Below, piece by piece: positions 2,667-18,310 of a DNA stretch of 64,000 nt (its first letter is position 1; each line of letters starts with the position of its first letter). The DNA is from Psychrobacter urativorans. GTDB taxonomy: Bacteria > Pseudomonadota > Gammaproteobacteria > Pseudomonadales > Moraxellaceae. The notes beneath the pieces are model-generated. The model saw nothing but the letters and a program-made list of their open reading frames with translations. It ran no database searches and had not been told where the DNA came from. The DNA is taken from NCBI RefSeq assembly GCF_001298525.1, contig NZ_CP012678.1, positions 744,001 to 808,000 on the forward strand, in the 5' to 3' direction. Made by a program: the position numbers and the translations under genes.

Positions 2667-4640
2667 CTATGTAGGCGTAGACCCTTCTTTATAACCAGCA
2701 ACGAAATGTTTAAACTGCTGTTTTAGCCATATAACATCATGCTGGCGAGCTTTATCAGTCAACTCAGATAGTGTCTGCTCTATATCGCTTAATGGGAAAC
2801 CATGCTCCATCGCCTGCATTATTAGTGGATGAGTGGTATCCTCAACATTATCTTCACCAATAATTAACTCTTCATAGAGTTTTTCACCAGCCCGAAGGCC
2901 AGTAAAGACAATTTCTATATCACCATCAGGATGATTCTCGTCTTTAGTCTCGCAGCCACTTAAGTGAATCATGCGACGGGCCAAATCAACAATTTTGACT
3001 GGTTCACCCATATTCAGAACAAATACTTCACCACCAGATGCCATAGCTCCAGCCTGAATCACTAGATTTGCTGCCTCTGGAATAGTCATAAAATAGCGTG
3101 TAACATCTGGATGTGTGACTGTTATAGGGCGCCCTTGCTCGATTTGTTTAGTAAATACTGGAACCACAGAGCCAGATGAACCGAGAACATTTCCAAACCG
3201 CACCATACTAATGCAAGTTTGACTACTAGTTTGGCTTAGTCCTTGACATACCAGCTCTGCTAAACGCTTAGTTGCGCCCATCACGTTGGTTGGGCGCACT
3301 GCCTTATCAGTCGAAATAAGTACAAATGTAGCCACTTTTGCTTGAATAGCAGCACGAGCACAGTGATAAGTACCTTTAGTATTGTTAATAGCACCCTCAA
3401 AAGGATTATGTTCGACAAGAGGTACATGCTTGTATGCAGCCGCATGATATACGGTCTGTATATGATAAGTCTTAAATATTCTAACGAGATTATCCTCATT
3501 AGTGACATTACCAATAATAGCAACTATATCAATATCTTGATACTGAGGATTATTAGCTTGCTTGCCAACAAGCTCTTGATGAATACTATATAAAGCATAT
3601 TCAGACAACTCATAGAGCACTAGGCATTTTGGTTTATTTTTGATAATCTGCCGACATAACTCACTACCGATAGAGCCACCTGCACCAGTAACTAGCACAT
3701 ATTTATTGGTGATGTTTTTTTGTAATAATTTTTCATCAGGCTCAACTGTCTGCCTATCTAAAACATCTAATATATCTATATTACGCATATTGCTGACAGT
3801 GACTTTTTCATCAGCAATCTCTTGCAGACTAGGTAATTCTTTAATTTTGATAGAAATATTTGCCAGTTTATCGATAATATACCTTTTATGCGTGCGGCTT
3901 ATAGAAGGCACAGCTAAAAATACTTGGGCAATATCTAGCGTATCCACCATATCAACAAGATCACTAGCAGCGTAAATCCTTTTCCCCAAGATATAAGCAC
4001 CTGTTAGCTGCGGATTATCATCAACAAAAGCAACTACATTATACTTATGGGAATCTCTAAGCCCATCAAATAATTCTCTACCCGCAAGACCAGCACCATA
4101 AATAACCACATTATCATAATCACTAATGTCTTTACTACGCGGTGTTCGTTTACCTTGCCAGCGTGTTAATAGCTCTTTAATCGTTAGGCGACTATTCCAT
4201 AACCAAATAAAGAATAAGAACAGATAAAAAATAGGAATAGAACGCGGTATGATAGGCATCCAGTCTAAATAAAGAATAGCCTCATAAATAATAATCAGTA
4301 CAGCAAACAACTGCAACACACTTCGCATTACCGTGTCAAAAAATACTCTAGCGACGTTTTTATAGAAACCTATTAGATACAATCCGATAATAGGCATGAC
4401 TGCATAAAGACCTAAAGCAACAGGACTAATATGATTGTCTATATAACCAAACCTAAGTGCTAATGCAAAATACAGACACACGCCTGCCATAAAAAAATCA
4501 GCAGTAATCAAAATAGTCTGTTTGACACTACGTGGTAGTGCTAATAAATACTGAGCACTACGGTATAGCCAATTATTAGTATCGCTAGCATTACTAACGG
4601 ATGTCTTATAAGTATGATTAAGCTCTGAACTCATAAACAT
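2667..4640 (-). CDS. membrane-bound nucleotide-sugar 4,6-dehydratase (WbpM/CapD family)
   Basis: About 657 residues. The first 150 hold four hydrophobic segments, followed by a CoA-binding-like/Rossmann domain (VVIYGAGLAGREL) and a C-terminal SDR domain with TGAGGSIGSELCRQI. The catalytic region STDKAVRPTNVMGATKR has Met in place of the usual Tyr of YxxxK, as in WbpM/PglF-type UDP-GlcNAc 4,6-dehydratases. The enzyme makes a 4-keto-6-deoxy sugar used for sugars such as QuiNAc, FucNAc or bacillosamine derivatives. It follows wzc closely. A TTG at 4649 extends the frame by three codons, but the ATG at 4640 (GAGCG just upstream) is the better start. Which final sugar is made depends on genes outside this window. 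Confidence 0.88.
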   Translation of the reverse strand: MFMSSELNHTYKTSVSNASDTNNWLYRSAQYLLALPRSVKQTILITADFFMAGVCLYFALALRFGYIDNHISPVALGLYAVMPIIGLYLIGFYKNVARVFFDTVMRSVLQLFAVLIIIYEAILYLDWMPIIPRSIPIFYLFLFFIWLWNSRLTIKELLTRWQGKRTPRSKDISDYDNVVIYGAGLAGRELFDGLRDSHKYNVVAFVDDNPQLTGAYILGKRIYAASDLVDMVDTLDIAQVFLAVPSISRTHKRYIIDKLANISIKIKELPSLQEIADEKVTVSNMRNIDILDVLDRQTVEPDEKLLQKNITNKYVLVTGAGGSIGSELCRQIIKNKPKCLVLYELSEYALYSIHQELVGKQANNPQYQDIDIVAIIGNVTNEDNLVRIFKTYHIQTVYHAAAYKHVPLVEHNPFEGAINNTKGTYHCARAAIQAKVATFVLISTDKAVRPTNVMGATKRLAELVCQGLSQTSSQTCISMVRFGNVLGSSGSVVPVFTKQIEQGRPITVTHPDVTRYFMTIPEAANLVIQAGAMASGGEVFVLNMGEPVKIVDLARRMIHLSGCETKDENHPDGDIEIVFTGLRAGEKLYEELIIGEDNVEDTTHPLIMQAMEHGFPLSDIEQTLSELTDKARQHDVIWLKQQFKHFVAGYKEGSTPT

Positions 4641-12690: not shown

Positions 12691-12854
12691 CTGACGCTCA
12701 CTTTTTCATCGGCAAAAAGATAAGGTCATCGTGCGTGTGCAGCGATGACCCAGTAGTCTGTTAGCAGTGGCATTGTAACATAGGCAGATAACCTAATTAA
12801 ATCATTAACTTCACATGATTTTTGCCCACTTTTCCGATAGAAGTAATTTTAAAG

Positions 12855-13715
12855 TTACGCACTAAAATCAAGCCCAATATCAAGCGCAGTCGTGCTATGA
12901 GTCAGATAACCCATCGCGATAAAATCAACGCCTGTTTCGGCTACGGCTCGAACGCTATCTGGCGTAATCCCACCTGACGCCTCTGTCTTCGCTCGACCTT
13001 GACACATAATGACCGCTTGGCGCAATAATTTAGGCGGCATGTTATCCAATAATACCAAACTAACACCTGTATCGAGTGCCAATTCTAATTGCGCTAAAGT
13101 ATCTACCTCGACCTCAATTGGTATCAAGTGTCCCGCAAATTTTTGCGCCTGCTTAATAGCGGTACTGATGTCGCCAGCAATAGCGATATGGTTGTCTTTA
13201 ATTAAAATGGCATCATCTAAACCTAAACGATGATTGCGTCCGCCTCCGCAACGTACCGCATATTTTTGGACGGTGCGCAGTCCCGGAATGGTCTTACGGG
13301 TGCAGGTAATTTGTGCCGGATAATCTGCCACACTATCCACAATTTGCCGTGTAGCCGTTGCGATACCGCTCAGATGCGTCATAAAATTCAATGCAGTACG
13401 CTCGGCGGTCAATAGATGACGCGCATTACCACGGACAGTTGCTAATACTGTGTCTGCCGCGACTGTTTCTCCATCGCTAACCGCAGCCACAAACTCAATA
13501 TGGGCATCAACTAAGGCAAATGACAAACGTGCTAAGTCCATACCGCAAATCACACCTGCTTGCCGCGCTTTAATCTCTAATTTTGCTTGCATCTCTACTG
13601 GAATCGTCGCCTGCGAGGTCACATCACCACGCCGACCCAAGTCTTCAAGTAATGCCACCTCCACTAACGGCTTGAGTAATACCTCATCCAATGCGGGCTG
13701 TACTTTATCTGTCAT
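12855..13715 (-). CDS. nadC: quinolinate phosphoribosyltransferase (decarboxylating) NadC
   Basis: It converts quinolinate and PRPP to nicotinate mononucleotide, CO2 and PPi, the step joining de novo synthesis to the shared NAD pathway. At 286 residues it is normal size. Visible family blocks are LLEDLGRRGDVTSQATIP, ERTALNFMTHLSGIATAT, CTRKTIPGLRTVQKYAVRCGGGRNHR and EASGGITPDSVRAVAETGVDFIAMG. It lies 173 bp downstream of the NadQ-like regulator gene on the same strand, and an imperfect copy of the NAD-cluster dyad lies 38 bp upstream of its start. Confidence 0.96.
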   Translation of the reverse strand: MTDKVQPALDEVLLKPLVEVALLEDLGRRGDVTSQATIPVEMQAKLEIKARQAGVICGMDLARLSFALVDAHIEFVAAVSDGETVAADTVLATVRGNARHLLTAERTALNFMTHLSGIATATRQIVDSVADYPAQITCTRKTIPGLRTVQKYAVRCGGGRNHRLGLDDAILIKDNHIAIAGDISTAIKQAQKFAGHLIPIEVEVDTLAQLELALDTGVSLVLLDNMPPKLLRQAVIMCQGRAKTEASGGITPDSVRAVAETGVDFIAMGYLTHSTTALDIGLDFSA

Positions 13716-13753
13716 ATTTGACCCTTTTTCGGCTCTTTATTAATATTAATTAC

Positions 13754-13774
13754 TTAAACTCAAAATGAGCATAA
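13754..13774 (-). promoter_or_regulatory. putative NadQ-type operator upstream of nadC
   Basis: TTAAACTCA-AAA-TGAGCATAA is an imperfect version of the perfect dyad found before nadA. The right half is identical and seven of nine bases in the left half match. It lies 38 bp upstream of the nadC start, where a repressor could block transcription. Ligand and binding are inferred from context. Confidence 0.65.
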
Positions 13775-13888
13775 ATATAACGTAAAGTGCAGTAGCTCGC
13801 AAGATAAGAGAATCATTTATTTATATCTTCTCACTATCTGAACATCAGTATAAAAAATAATATTCTATTCAAAACTAATTACGTGAAG

Positions 13889-14929
13889 CTATTTACGTTT
13901 GGGCAATTTGCTATCCATCAGTAAGCTTTGTAATTCAATATCATGGCGAAAACGATATAACTTCGCTGGGCGACCACGTTGAGCGTTACTACTGCCACCT
14001 GTTGGTATGACTAAATTTTGGGAATCCAGCAGACGGCGAAAGTTTTGCTTATGCAAAGGTACGCCGGATAATGCTTCAACACTTTGCTGTAACTGCGACA
14101 AGGTAAAGATATCAGGCATCAAGCCAAAAATAAGCGGTTGGTACTCTATTTTTGCCCGCAACCTCGAGATGGCGGTAGCAATCACACGGCGATGATCGTA
14201 ATACATCGGCACCCCTATCATCTGTGACCAATCCATAGGTAATTTATTAGGCTGATACGTTGGCGCTTCTGGAATCAAGCCTGCTTCATAAAGCATCTCA
14301 TAACGCAGAAGCACATGCTCTGCAACCCACTCAGTAGCTTCACCCTTATAACACTTATCATGCACTACCTGATAATTACTCTTGTCAGCGTCATCTTCTT
14401 GTCGTGTGTCTATCGGCTCCGAACTCATTCCCCAACATAAGCGAATACGTTGCCTGCGACGGTACTGCGCTGCCTCATCATTAGCACTCTCTGCCCACGC
14501 CAATAACGCCGGTAAAATCAAACGTGTAATGATATCAGGCGTGCCAGTTAAATGATTTTCCCACGGAAAATAGTCATACCAATCGCGCCATAATGCTTGG
14601 CTTTGTAGCTTAGTCGTTTGTGTTTCTTGCACGAGACCTAAATAGCTGACATACACCAACGCATGACCATCAATATTGCGCCGACTGGTATCGACAAAGG
14701 TATATAACTGCTCTAAATAACCCAAAGGCTGCTGCGTCTGTTCTTCCACCCACTGGCGTACACCCGCCTGTAACGAGCGATGCAATGGCATCAAAGGTCC
14801 ATTAGGTAAAAGCTTACCTTGATCAACTGTTAAAACACGCGCCGTATGGTCGGTAATAGCAATAAGCACCGCGACCACTTCTGTCGTGCCACTGCCCTGC
14901 TGATGCGCATGCGAATAAGACAAAGTCAT
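13889..14929 (-). CDS. nadQ: Nudix-like/winged-helix transcriptional regulator of NAD synthesis (NadQ type)
   Basis: A 346-residue regulator. Its N-terminal half resembles a Nudix domain (VVAVLIAITDHTARVLTVD; LQAGVRQWVEEQTQQPLGYLEQLYTF) but shows no intact Nudix box GX5EX7REUXEEXGU, so it probably senses rather than hydrolyses a nucleotide. The C-terminus has the winged helix shared by NrtR/NadQ regulators (FTLSQLQQSVEALSGVPLHK; NFRRLLDSQ; RGRPAKLYRF). The gene sits between nadC and the divergent nadA-nadB operon, and a common dyad precedes nadA and nadC, which argues for a local repressor of quinolinate and NAD synthesis. NadQ rather than NrtR is my choice from length, the lost Nudix box and the target genes. 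Confidence 0.8.
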   Translation of the reverse strand: MTLSYSHAHQQGSGTTEVVAVLIAITDHTARVLTVDQGKLLPNGPLMPLHRSLQAGVRQWVEEQTQQPLGYLEQLYTFVDTSRRNIDGHALVYVSYLGLVQETQTTKLQSQALWRDWYDYFPWENHLTGTPDIITRLILPALLAWAESANDEAAQYRRRQRIRLCWGMSSEPIDTRQEDDADKSNYQVVHDKCYKGEATEWVAEHVLLRYEMLYEAGLIPEAPTYQPNKLPMDWSQMIGVPMYYDHRRVIATAISRLRAKIEYQPLIFGLMPDIFTLSQLQQSVEALSGVPLHKQNFRRLLDSQNLVIPTGGSSNAQRGRPAKLYRFRHDIELQSLLMDSKLPKRK

Positions 14930-15107
14930 AGTATTCCGTAATTACCCTTTATATCTACTAATTGATTCATGCTGTTATAAAACAGCATGCTCGTAATAAA
15001 AATCAGTATAGCGTGAAAGCGGTTTTGGATGCGGTTCTATCATCGTCATCACCCGTTATTAGTATGACAAAAACTGATATTAAGTCATAAATAATATAAA
15101 AAATCAC

Positions 15108-15135
15108 TTGTAGTTATGCTCAAAATGAGCATAAT
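15108..15135 (+). promoter_or_regulatory. putative nadA promoter overlapped by operator
   Basis: A weak -35 (TTGTAG, 15108-15113) and a -10 (CATAAT, 15130-15135) are separated by 16 bp. The perfect dyad at 15114-15134 fills the spacer and most of the -10, an arrangement expected for repression. The -35 match is only three of six. Confidence 0.45.
15114..15134. promoter_or_regulatory. perfect NadQ-type operator dyad upstream of nadA
   Basis: TTATGCTCA-AAA-TGAGCATAA has two exact 9-bp inverted arms around three bases. It lies 99 bp upstream of nadA and 184 bp from the divergent regulator gene, so it may serve both. A related copy precedes nadC at 13754-13774. I did not notice another copy of the core CTCAAAATGAG in the window. 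Confidence 0.75.
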
Positions 15136-15233
15136 GAAATTATCTTACCTTTATTTACTCTTTCACTCTGCTTTAGCTGACTTATTTTTTAGTGGCTCAT
15201 TGATTATCGCTAACGCACCAGAGGCTTACACCT

Positions 15234-16373
15234 ATGAAAACTTATCCCTATGACGCGCCCATTTTAAGCACTGACAATCGTATTGCTATTAAGATGAACA
15301 TTGAATATGCCAAAGCTAAGATGCCGGCAGATTTGCCACGCTCTGAGCGACTTAAAGTTGAAGCGAACATTAAGCAGCTATTAAAAGATAATAATGCGGT
15401 GCTAGTGGCACATTATTATGTTGACCCGTTTATTCAAGATTTAGCACTGGCAACGGGTGGCTGCGTGGGTGATTCACTAGAAATGGCACGTTTTGGACAA
15501 GCGCATAGTGCGCAAACCTTAGTGGTTGCAGGCGTACGCTTTATGGGTGAATCGGCAAAAATACTCAGTATGGAAAAAACGATATTGATGCCGGATTTGG
15601 AAGCTGAGTGTTCGCTGGATTTGGGCTGTCCTATCGAAGAGTTTTCTGCTTTTTGTGACGCGCATCCTGAGCGGACGGTGGTTGTTTATGCCAATACCAG
15701 TGCGGCAGTCAAGGCGCGCGCGGATTGGGTAGTGACCTCTTCAGTGGGTATTGATATCGTGCGCCATTTACATGAGCAAGGCGAGACCATTATTTGGGGA
15801 CCAGATAGACATTTGGGAAAATATATTGCGCGCGAAACGGGTGCAGATATGCTGTTATGGCAAGGTTCATGCATGGTGCATAATGAATTTAAAGCCACGG
15901 AACTGCTGCAATTAAAATCAGAATATCCAACCGCTAAAGTCTTGGTACATCCTGAATCGCCTGATAGTGTGGTGGCGCTTGCCGATGTGGTCGGCTCAAC
16001 CAGTAAGTTGCTCCAGTCAACCTACGAGATGGACGCGGACACCTTTATTGTAGCAACGGATTTGGGTATCTTGCACGAAATGCAAAAACGCTCACCGAAT
16101 AAACGCTTTTTAGCCGCACCGACCGCAGGCGAAAGTGCCAGCTGTAAAAGCTGCGCCTTTTGTCCATGGATGGCGATGAATGGATTGCAAGGTATTGAGC
16201 AGTGTTTGATTAACAATAGTGGTGAGGTCACTCTGACACCTGAAACGGCAGATGCGGCTAGAAAACCATTACAGCGTATGCTTGATTTTGCTAAAGACAA
16301 CCAACAACGAGTCGCTACAAGTGGTGATTTGGTCACTGACCGTCCTTTATTTACCAATGTCGGAGCTGCGTAA
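15234..16373 (+). CDS. nadA: quinolinate synthase NadA
   Basis: A cytoplasmic 4Fe-4S enzyme that condenses iminoaspartate with dihydroxyacetone phosphate to quinolinate. The 379 residues include the family blocks [26 protein letters not shown] and [18 protein letters not shown]. Likely cluster cysteines are in [22 protein letters not shown] and [13 protein letters not shown]. The nadB start follows one base after the stop codon, so the two form an operon. The iminoaspartate made by NadB is unstable, which explains the tight pairing. Confidence 0.97.
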
Positions 16374-16374
16374 T

Positions 16375-18234
16375 ATGAAGGCGCTATTGGCAGATAATAG
16401 CAGTACATCTATTGATACTGACGTTTTGATTATCGGTGCAGGATTGGCAGGATTAAGTACCGCATTATGTTTGCCAAAGTCATTAAATATTACGATATTA
16501 AGCAAAGCTGCGTTGGAGAGTTGTTCCAGTCACTATGCCCAAGGCGGTATCGCAGCAAGCTTGGATGAAAATGATACCAGTGCTGCCCATGTGGCCGATA
16601 CCTTAACTGCCGGTGCAGGATTATGTACTATTGATAATACCACGCAAATTTTAAGTGCTGGGCAACAGGCAGTACAATGGTTATGCGATCAAGGCGTACC
16701 TTTTACCAAAATTCCGCTAAGTGATACTCATCAAAGTCTCAATGCAGTAAATTCTAGCGCTGATTTAAAAACGGCTGATTTACATTTAACTCAAGAAGGC
16801 GGTCATGGCTGCCGACGCGTTGCACATGCAGACGATGCAACAGGTCGTCATATTATGCAAACGCTTTCGGCACGAGTGCAAACGTCTACTAATATCACCA
16901 TATTGCCTTATCTTGAGGCGCTAAGTTTGCTGACCGAACCAAATGCTAATACTAAAACGCAAATAACAAGTGACTTAAAAGATAAGCATTGCCAAGGTGC
17001 GATTGTCTTTGACCATCACAATCAACGTCAATTAAATTTTCGTAGTCGCGCAGTCATATTGGCAAGTGGCGGCTTAGGACAATTGTTTCAACGTGCCAGC
17101 GCCCCCAATGTTTGTGTGGGCGATGGCGTCATGATGGCATGGCAAGCAGGCTGCCGCCTAGCCAATTTAGAGTTTGTGCAGTTTCATCCGACAGGCTTGG
17201 CATTAGGCGATAGCAGCTTTCTAATCTCAGAAGCGTTGCGCGGTGAAGGCGGTCACCTATATTGCCCGAAATCAGGCGTGCGCTTTATGCTAGATATTGA
17301 CAGTCGAGCAGAACTTGCCCCACGAGATATTGTGGCGCGTGCCATTGCTGAGCAAATTCATAATAACGGCTTAGGCTATGTGCATCTTGATGTCAGCCAC
17401 TTGCCAGCAGAATTTTTGCGTGAGCATTTCCCGCAGATTTATCAGACATTATTAGCGCTTGGCATTGATATCACTATTGATCCTATTCCTGTTGCACCTA
17501 CAGCGCACTATAGTTGCGGTGGCGTAGTGACTTGTACCAATGGCTTAACCGATGTGCAAGGATTATACGCAGCGGGCGAAGTCGCTTATACCGGTCTACA
17601 TGGCGCAAATCGCTTGGCAAGTAACTCTTTATTAGAGTGCGTGGTTATCGGTCGTAATATCGCCGCGCACTTGCCAACATATCTGCGCTCTGCTGATTGG
17701 GACTCTGTAGAACTTACCAATACTAAGTCGATTCACTTACCCTCGTCTAGCCTAATGACTGAGCATAACTATAATAGTAATGGTAAAGCTCAATCTACTA
17801 TCAGTACTATTGAGGATATTAATGACATTACTGCCAAGCTAAAAGCCTTAATGAGTCAGAATATGGGTATCACTCGCAGCGCTGAGTTATTAGTACAAGC
17901 TCTCGAACAAATACAAGGTTGGCAAGAAAGCATTCGACTTTCAGGTTTAGATGATTTAACGGGTTTAAGCAATATAGACAGCGTAGATAATACAACCACG
18001 CCTAACCATCTGATTCAGTTTCGGTTAGAGCGCCAACTACAATTAGCCACGCTCATTGTTCAATCAGCGTATCAGCGCTATGAAAGTCGTGGCGGGCATT
18101 ACCGAAAGGATTATCCTGATTTAGCCAATAAACCGATGATTAGTGTCATTGAACCTGTCACGGATAAAGCAACCCACCTAAATGCTACCTCAGCGTGGTT
18201 ATCCACACCCTTTCCAGTAACGAGTTGTGCTTAG
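16375..18234 (+). CDS. nadB: L-aspartate oxidase NadB
   Basis: An FAD enzyme that oxidises L-aspartate to iminoaspartate, the first step of de novo NAD synthesis. The frame is open further upstream inside nadA, but the ATG at 16375 (GGAG just upstream, one base after the nadA stop) gives a normal N-terminus with VLIIGAGLAGLSTAL near residue 20. That start gives 619 residues. Other marks are SSHYAQGGIAASL, EFVQFHPTGLAL, PTAHYSCGGVVT, LYAAGEVAYTGLHGANRLASNSLLE and the C-terminal ESRGGHYRKDYPD. It is longer than the E. coli enzyme (about 540), with extra sequence after the catalytic domain. Confidence 0.96.
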   Translation: MKALLADNSSTSIDTDVLIIGAGLAGLSTALCLPKSLNITILSKAALESCSSHYAQGGIAASLDENDTSAAHVADTLTAGAGLCTIDNTTQILSAGQQAVQWLCDQGVPFTKIPLSDTHQSLNAVNSSADLKTADLHLTQEGGHGCRRVAHADDATGRHIMQTLSARVQTSTNITILPYLEALSLLTEPNANTKTQITSDLKDKHCQGAIVFDHHNQRQLNFRSRAVILASGGLGQLFQRASAPNVCVGDGVMMAWQAGCRLANLEFVQFHPTGLALGDSSFLISEALRGEGGHLYCPKSGVRFMLDIDSRAELAPRDIVARAIAEQIHNNGLGYVHLDVSHLPAEFLREHFPQIYQTLLALGIDITIDPIPVAPTAHYSCGGVVTCTNGLTDVQGLYAAGEVAYTGLHGANRLASNSLLECVVIGRNIAAHLPTYLRSADWDSVELTNTKSIHLPSSSLMTEHNYNSNGKAQSTISTIEDINDITAKLKALMSQNMGITRSAELLVQALEQIQGWQESIRLSGLDDLTGLSNIDSVDNTTTPNHLIQFRLERQLQLATLIVQSAYQRYESRGGHYRKDYPDLANKPMISVIEPVTDKATHLNATSAWLSTPFPVTSCA

Positions 18235-18269
18235 CAATTCCAGTTTTTAACCTTTGTTATGTTACAATC

Positions 18270-18310
18270 GCAGGCTTAGTACCATGTTAGTACCACTGTT
18301 ACGAGCCTGC
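18270..18310 (+). promoter_or_regulatory. small inverted and direct repeats just upstream of lysO
   Basis: GCAGGCT (18270-18276) and AGCCTGC (18304-18310) are reverse complements. Between them TTAGTACCA occurs twice (18276-18284 and 18287-18295). The right arm ends four bases before the lysO ATG and takes the place of a ribosome-binding site. A TACAAT (18263-18268) could be the -10. The structure could limit translation; function is unknown. Confidence 0.4.

Follow-up and report, generated by a model that had tools for sequence, protein, structure and literature searches.

NadQ (COG4111) was named in a 2016 study (PMC5343134), the text of which places the regulator in the alphaproteobacteria and in several beta- and gammaproteobacteria, gives its DNA consensus (ttATRCTCannntGAGYATaa) for seven lineages, and describes nadABC as the core of its regulon, with nadQ often clustered with these genes. 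The word Psychrobacter is absent from the main text of that study. NadQ is also listed among the repressors of NAD genes in the relevant passage of PMC12421817, and the title of Minazzato et al. (2022) describes it as Nudix-like and ATP-responsive. A second described family is NrtR, the Nudix-related regulator of NAD genes, which has the C-terminal winged helix (PF21906) and NAD targets in common with the regulator reported here and differs from it in the N-terminal effector domain, as judged by alignment and by the text of PMC5343134.

Here we analysed a window of 64,000 nucleotides from Psychrobacter urativorans (contig NZ_CP012678.1), for which a regulator of NAD genes, Nudix-like and with a winged helix, had been predicted together with matching dyads upstream of nadA and nadC. 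The analysis supported this prediction and assigned the regulator to a known family, NadQ (Table 1). nadQ is transcribed divergently from nadA, with one dyad in the shared spacer. Compared with the NadQ regulon (PMC5343134; PDB 7q91-7q94), the protein family, the DNA consensus, the targets nadA, nadB and nadC and the clustering of nadQ are all alike, and no essential difference was seen; the nadC operator is two bases off the perfect dyad, both in one arm. The system is thus an ordinary NadQ regulon of a kind already described. Building on the orthology, the sites, their conservation and their co-occurrence with the regulator, we consider it very likely that this NadQ orthologue binds the two dyads and represses nadAB and nadC, and that its Nudix-like domain senses ATP.

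Table 1. Genes, predicted operators and putative promoter elements of the NAD locus, in window coordinates.
Feature	Position	Strand	Remarks
nadC, quinolinate phosphoribosyltransferase	12855-13715	-	TIGR00078 above cutoff
Predicted NadQ operator of nadC	13754-13774		16/18 match, asymmetric; one arm TTAAACTCA
Putative nadC promoter, TTGCGA-17-TATATT	13774-13802	-	-10 overlaps operator by one base; promoter scan overall no excess over shuffles
nadQ, 346 aa	13889-14929	-	N domain probably Nudix-like, box degenerate by sequence; residues 268-327, winged helix of NrtR type
Putative nadQ -10, TATACT	15005-15010	-	In conserved block, ~103 bp from operator
Putative nadA promoter, TTGTAG-16-CATAAT	15108-15135	+	-10 overlaps operator right arm; conserved block, 76 aligned spacers
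Predicted NadQ operator of nadA(B)	15114-15134		Perfect 9-3-9 dyad; fits published NadQ consensus
nadA, quinolinate synthase	15234-16373	+	PF02445 and TIGR00550 above cutoff
nadB, L-aspartate oxidase	16375-18234	+	TIGR00551 above cutoff; start 1 nt past nadA stop

A phmmer comparison with PDB entry 7q91 ('NADQ transcription factor') aligned both halves of the regulator (stretches 14-159 and 200-344) at an E value of 2.2e-79, and the NrtR_WHD domain PF21906 was recognized in its C-terminal part (E 2.9e-20, 72.6 bits, cutoff 27). Judged by its sequence, the regulator is NadQ (COG4111), an orthologue of the described protein. In the box region the E, E and G of the canonical Nudix box are replaced by H, Q and T; among the 80 rows of the sequence alignment with letters at the box positions, H and T occur in all 80 and Q in 76. 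By sequence, then, the box is degenerate in a conserved way, in agreement with the predicted lack of an intact Nudix box. It is very improbable that the protein is instead NrtR, the ADP-ribose-responsive Nudix regulator, even though it possesses the NrtR winged-helix domain and gives a weak C-terminal match to the corresponding NCBIfam model (NF050029, ADP-ribose-responsive), since this match reaches 55.1 bits against a cutoff of 400 and covers the C-terminal part only. Moreover, the N-terminal domain aligns with that of NadQ (7q91) at 137.7 bits, against 1.2 bits with 3gz5, labelled a MutT/nudix family protein, which we take to be an NrtR. The dyad motif at the locus is likewise that of NadQ, as given by the consensus in the text of PMC5343134.

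The perfect 9-3-9 dyad that had been predicted for the nadA-nadQ spacer reads TTATGCTCA-AAA-TGAGCATAA, with nine of nine complementary positions between the arms, and fits the published NadQ consensus exactly. The copy before nadC was also found as predicted, with two mismatches over the 18 specified bases, and differs from the core ATRCTCANNNTGAGYAT at one position. Scanning of the window with up to three mismatches returned three dyad sites where shuffles would give 0.06; the third site (58812, three mismatches) lies within a 677-codon frame. Across the genome (2,931,580 bases), the nadA and nadC sites are the sole matches with at most two mismatches. Raising the limit to three gave eight sites, against one for the reversed-pattern control; five of the six sites with three mismatches fall into reading frames of at least 80 codons, one of which (holding site L007) has only 84 codons, and the remaining site (L008) is flanked by an AIR-synthase-type gene on one side and an AI-2E transporter gene on the other. 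With the looser core pattern ATRCTCANNNTGAGYAT, 121 genome sites were obtained at up to two mismatches, compared with 32 in the reversed control. Twelve of these have at most one mismatch, namely the two NAD operators and ten sites in frames, and 109 have two; 17 of the latter were positioned, with 14 in frames and three outside (L110, L115, L116). Owing to this excess over the control, the expected confinement of the dyad to the NAD locus holds for good matches (up to two mismatches of the full dyad) and does not extend to the looser core pattern.

Relatives were collected in one scan with the regulator, from which the best 80 of 254 confirmed loci were taken: 76 from Psychrobacter, three from Acinetobacter and one from Moraxella catarrhalis, the closest being Psychrobacter sp. 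GP33 with a NadQ 96% identical. With up to four mismatches allowed (a number reached by the nadC site of L074), alignment of these best 80 of 254 loci confirmed both sites, the motif being present in the nadA spacer of all 80 and in the nadC spacer of 79. One of the nadA sites (L084) was identified by reading and the other 79 by script; the script had missed it as the nadA start was extrapolated, and the site, at 3879 with one mismatch, falls between nadQ and the aligned portion of nadA. At the M. catarrhalis locus (L087), where the gap between nadQ and nadC measures only about 35 bp, no nadC site was found within four mismatches, and two similar loci (L138, L140) had none beside nadQ within three. 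The mean identity of the operators to the window was 0.98 (nadA) and 0.97 (nadC), against a median 21-mer identity in these spacers of 0.44 and 0.47, respectively, as calculated from 76 (nadA) and 77 (nadC) of 81 alignment rows; L082, L084, L085 and L087 were left out of both alignments, and L061 also of that for nadA on account of its length. At the nadC site, the altered arm TGAGTTTAA recurs in 61 of the 76 Psychrobacter loci among the best 80 of 254, and because of this retention the departure from a perfect dyad probably reflects tuning to a weaker site and not decay.

In a family sample of 99 genomes, the regulator was detected in 24. All 18 genomes sampled from its own genus contain both the regulator and the sites, which supports a NadQ regulon in this genus; the assignment is useful for annotation and settles no open question. 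The other 15 genera have NadQ in only 6 of 81 genomes, a patchy occurrence that suggests loss or transfer. For the co-occurrence analysis we allowed no more than one mismatch to the motif TWATRCTCANNNTGAGYATWA, its R/Y positions following the published consensus and its outer W positions the relatives; it had been widened at these positions after the result of a stricter pattern was already seen. The motif occurs in 28 of the 99 genomes, that is in 24/24 with NadQ and 4/75 without (Fisher p 3e-19, uncorrected for kinship), and the stricter pattern in 21/24 and 1/75, respectively. The dyads might in principle be operators of another, unlinked regulator, with NadQ as a bystander, and we give this explanation next to no credence, as the presence of the motif tracks that of nadQ and the dyads fit the NadQ consensus that the text of PMC5343134 gives for seven lineages. 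Within the family, 43 of 50 motif matches lie within 600 bp of nadQ; the seven others, six inside frames of at least 80 codons and one outside (L154), were taken as chance.

Turning to the mechanism by which NadQ may act here, dimer binding, repression and the response to ATP are read from the family and from the position of the sites relative to the promoters. NadQ, probably as a dimer, would bind both dyads through its C-terminal winged helices. Repression of nadAB would follow from the placement of the nadA operator, which fills the space between the putative -35 and -10 elements, and repression of nadC from an operator just downstream of the putative -10; blocking of the polymerase would be the plain reading at both promoters. 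The N-terminal Nudix-like domain, having lost residues of the catalytic motif, may serve as a ligand sensor, and the ligand would be ATP according to the 2022 title cited above, in which case the genes for de novo NAD synthesis would be transcribed in keeping with the ATP level. The proposed overlap between the operator and the -10 of nadA is plausible, as the putative -10 shares bases with the right arm and the sequence there is conserved. On the other side, the putative -35 of nadA is weak and this promoter is missing from the list of a mechanical promoter scan, which yielded five promoter-like sites against 5.1 in shuffles and hence no excess.

The locus had further been described in the original prediction as a self-contained circuit. 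The autoregulation that this term may suggest was not supported, the operator being situated 184 bp from the nadQ start. A TATACT hexamer in a conserved block points to a nadQ promoter at a distance of about 103 bp from the operator, and autoregulation is therefore doubtful. Thus, although the divergent arrangement with a single operator in the shared spacer would suit a site that controls both genes and autoregulates nadQ in addition to repressing nadAB, we regard this extension as unlikely in view of the distances to the nadQ start and to the -10-like hexamer, and given that NadQ regulons include nadQ itself in some groups only, according to the text of PMC5343134.

The number of operators before nadA varies among the relatives. 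Each of the 76 Psychrobacter loci among the best 80 of 254 has a single operator in its nadA-nadQ spacer. A pair of NadQ motifs at a distance of 31-34 bp, corresponding to about three helical turns, precedes nadA in eight of ten loci from the Acinetobacter or Moraxella side (L082, L085, L087, L136 and L138-L141; for example L082:3782-3836, L087:3825-3876 and L141:1268-1322) and a single motif in the other two (L084, L137), where the genus of L136-L141 is assigned only by likeness to named loci and some may represent the same species twice. One motif of the pair has two to three mismatches in five of the eight tandem loci. We tentatively propose, with more doubt than conviction, that the operator layout differs within the family, tandem motifs standing for cooperative or looped repression on the Acinetobacter/Moraxella side and single ones for simple repression in Psychrobacter.

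Several other features of the locus were considered as regulatory elements. A second perfect dyad in the nadA-nadQ spacer, of 9-4-9 form (CATGCTGTT-ATAA-AACAGCATG, 14968-14989, some 40 bp ahead of the start of nadQ), was evaluated as an operator or leader hairpin and rejected: within three mismatches it recurs only in the closest relative (L009, two mismatches) and is absent from the other 79 of the best 80 of 254 loci. It therefore stands outside the conserved system and is probably due to chance or lineage-specific. As to a regulatory RNA in the nadA leader, a search of 12800-18300 against Rfam gave one match, to the snoRNA sR55, which scored below the gathering threshold inside nadB and was taken as chance. 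An open frame of 39 codons (15134-15253), which has the operator's last base as its first, overlaps the nadA start; because the spacer alignment of the relatives shows poor conservation here, the frame probably does not encode a leader peptide. Finally, the nadA-nadQ spacer in a genome of Psychrobacter glacincola (L061:1833-4001) extends over 2168 bp, a length that suggests an insertion, and its operator (1920) still adjoins nadA.
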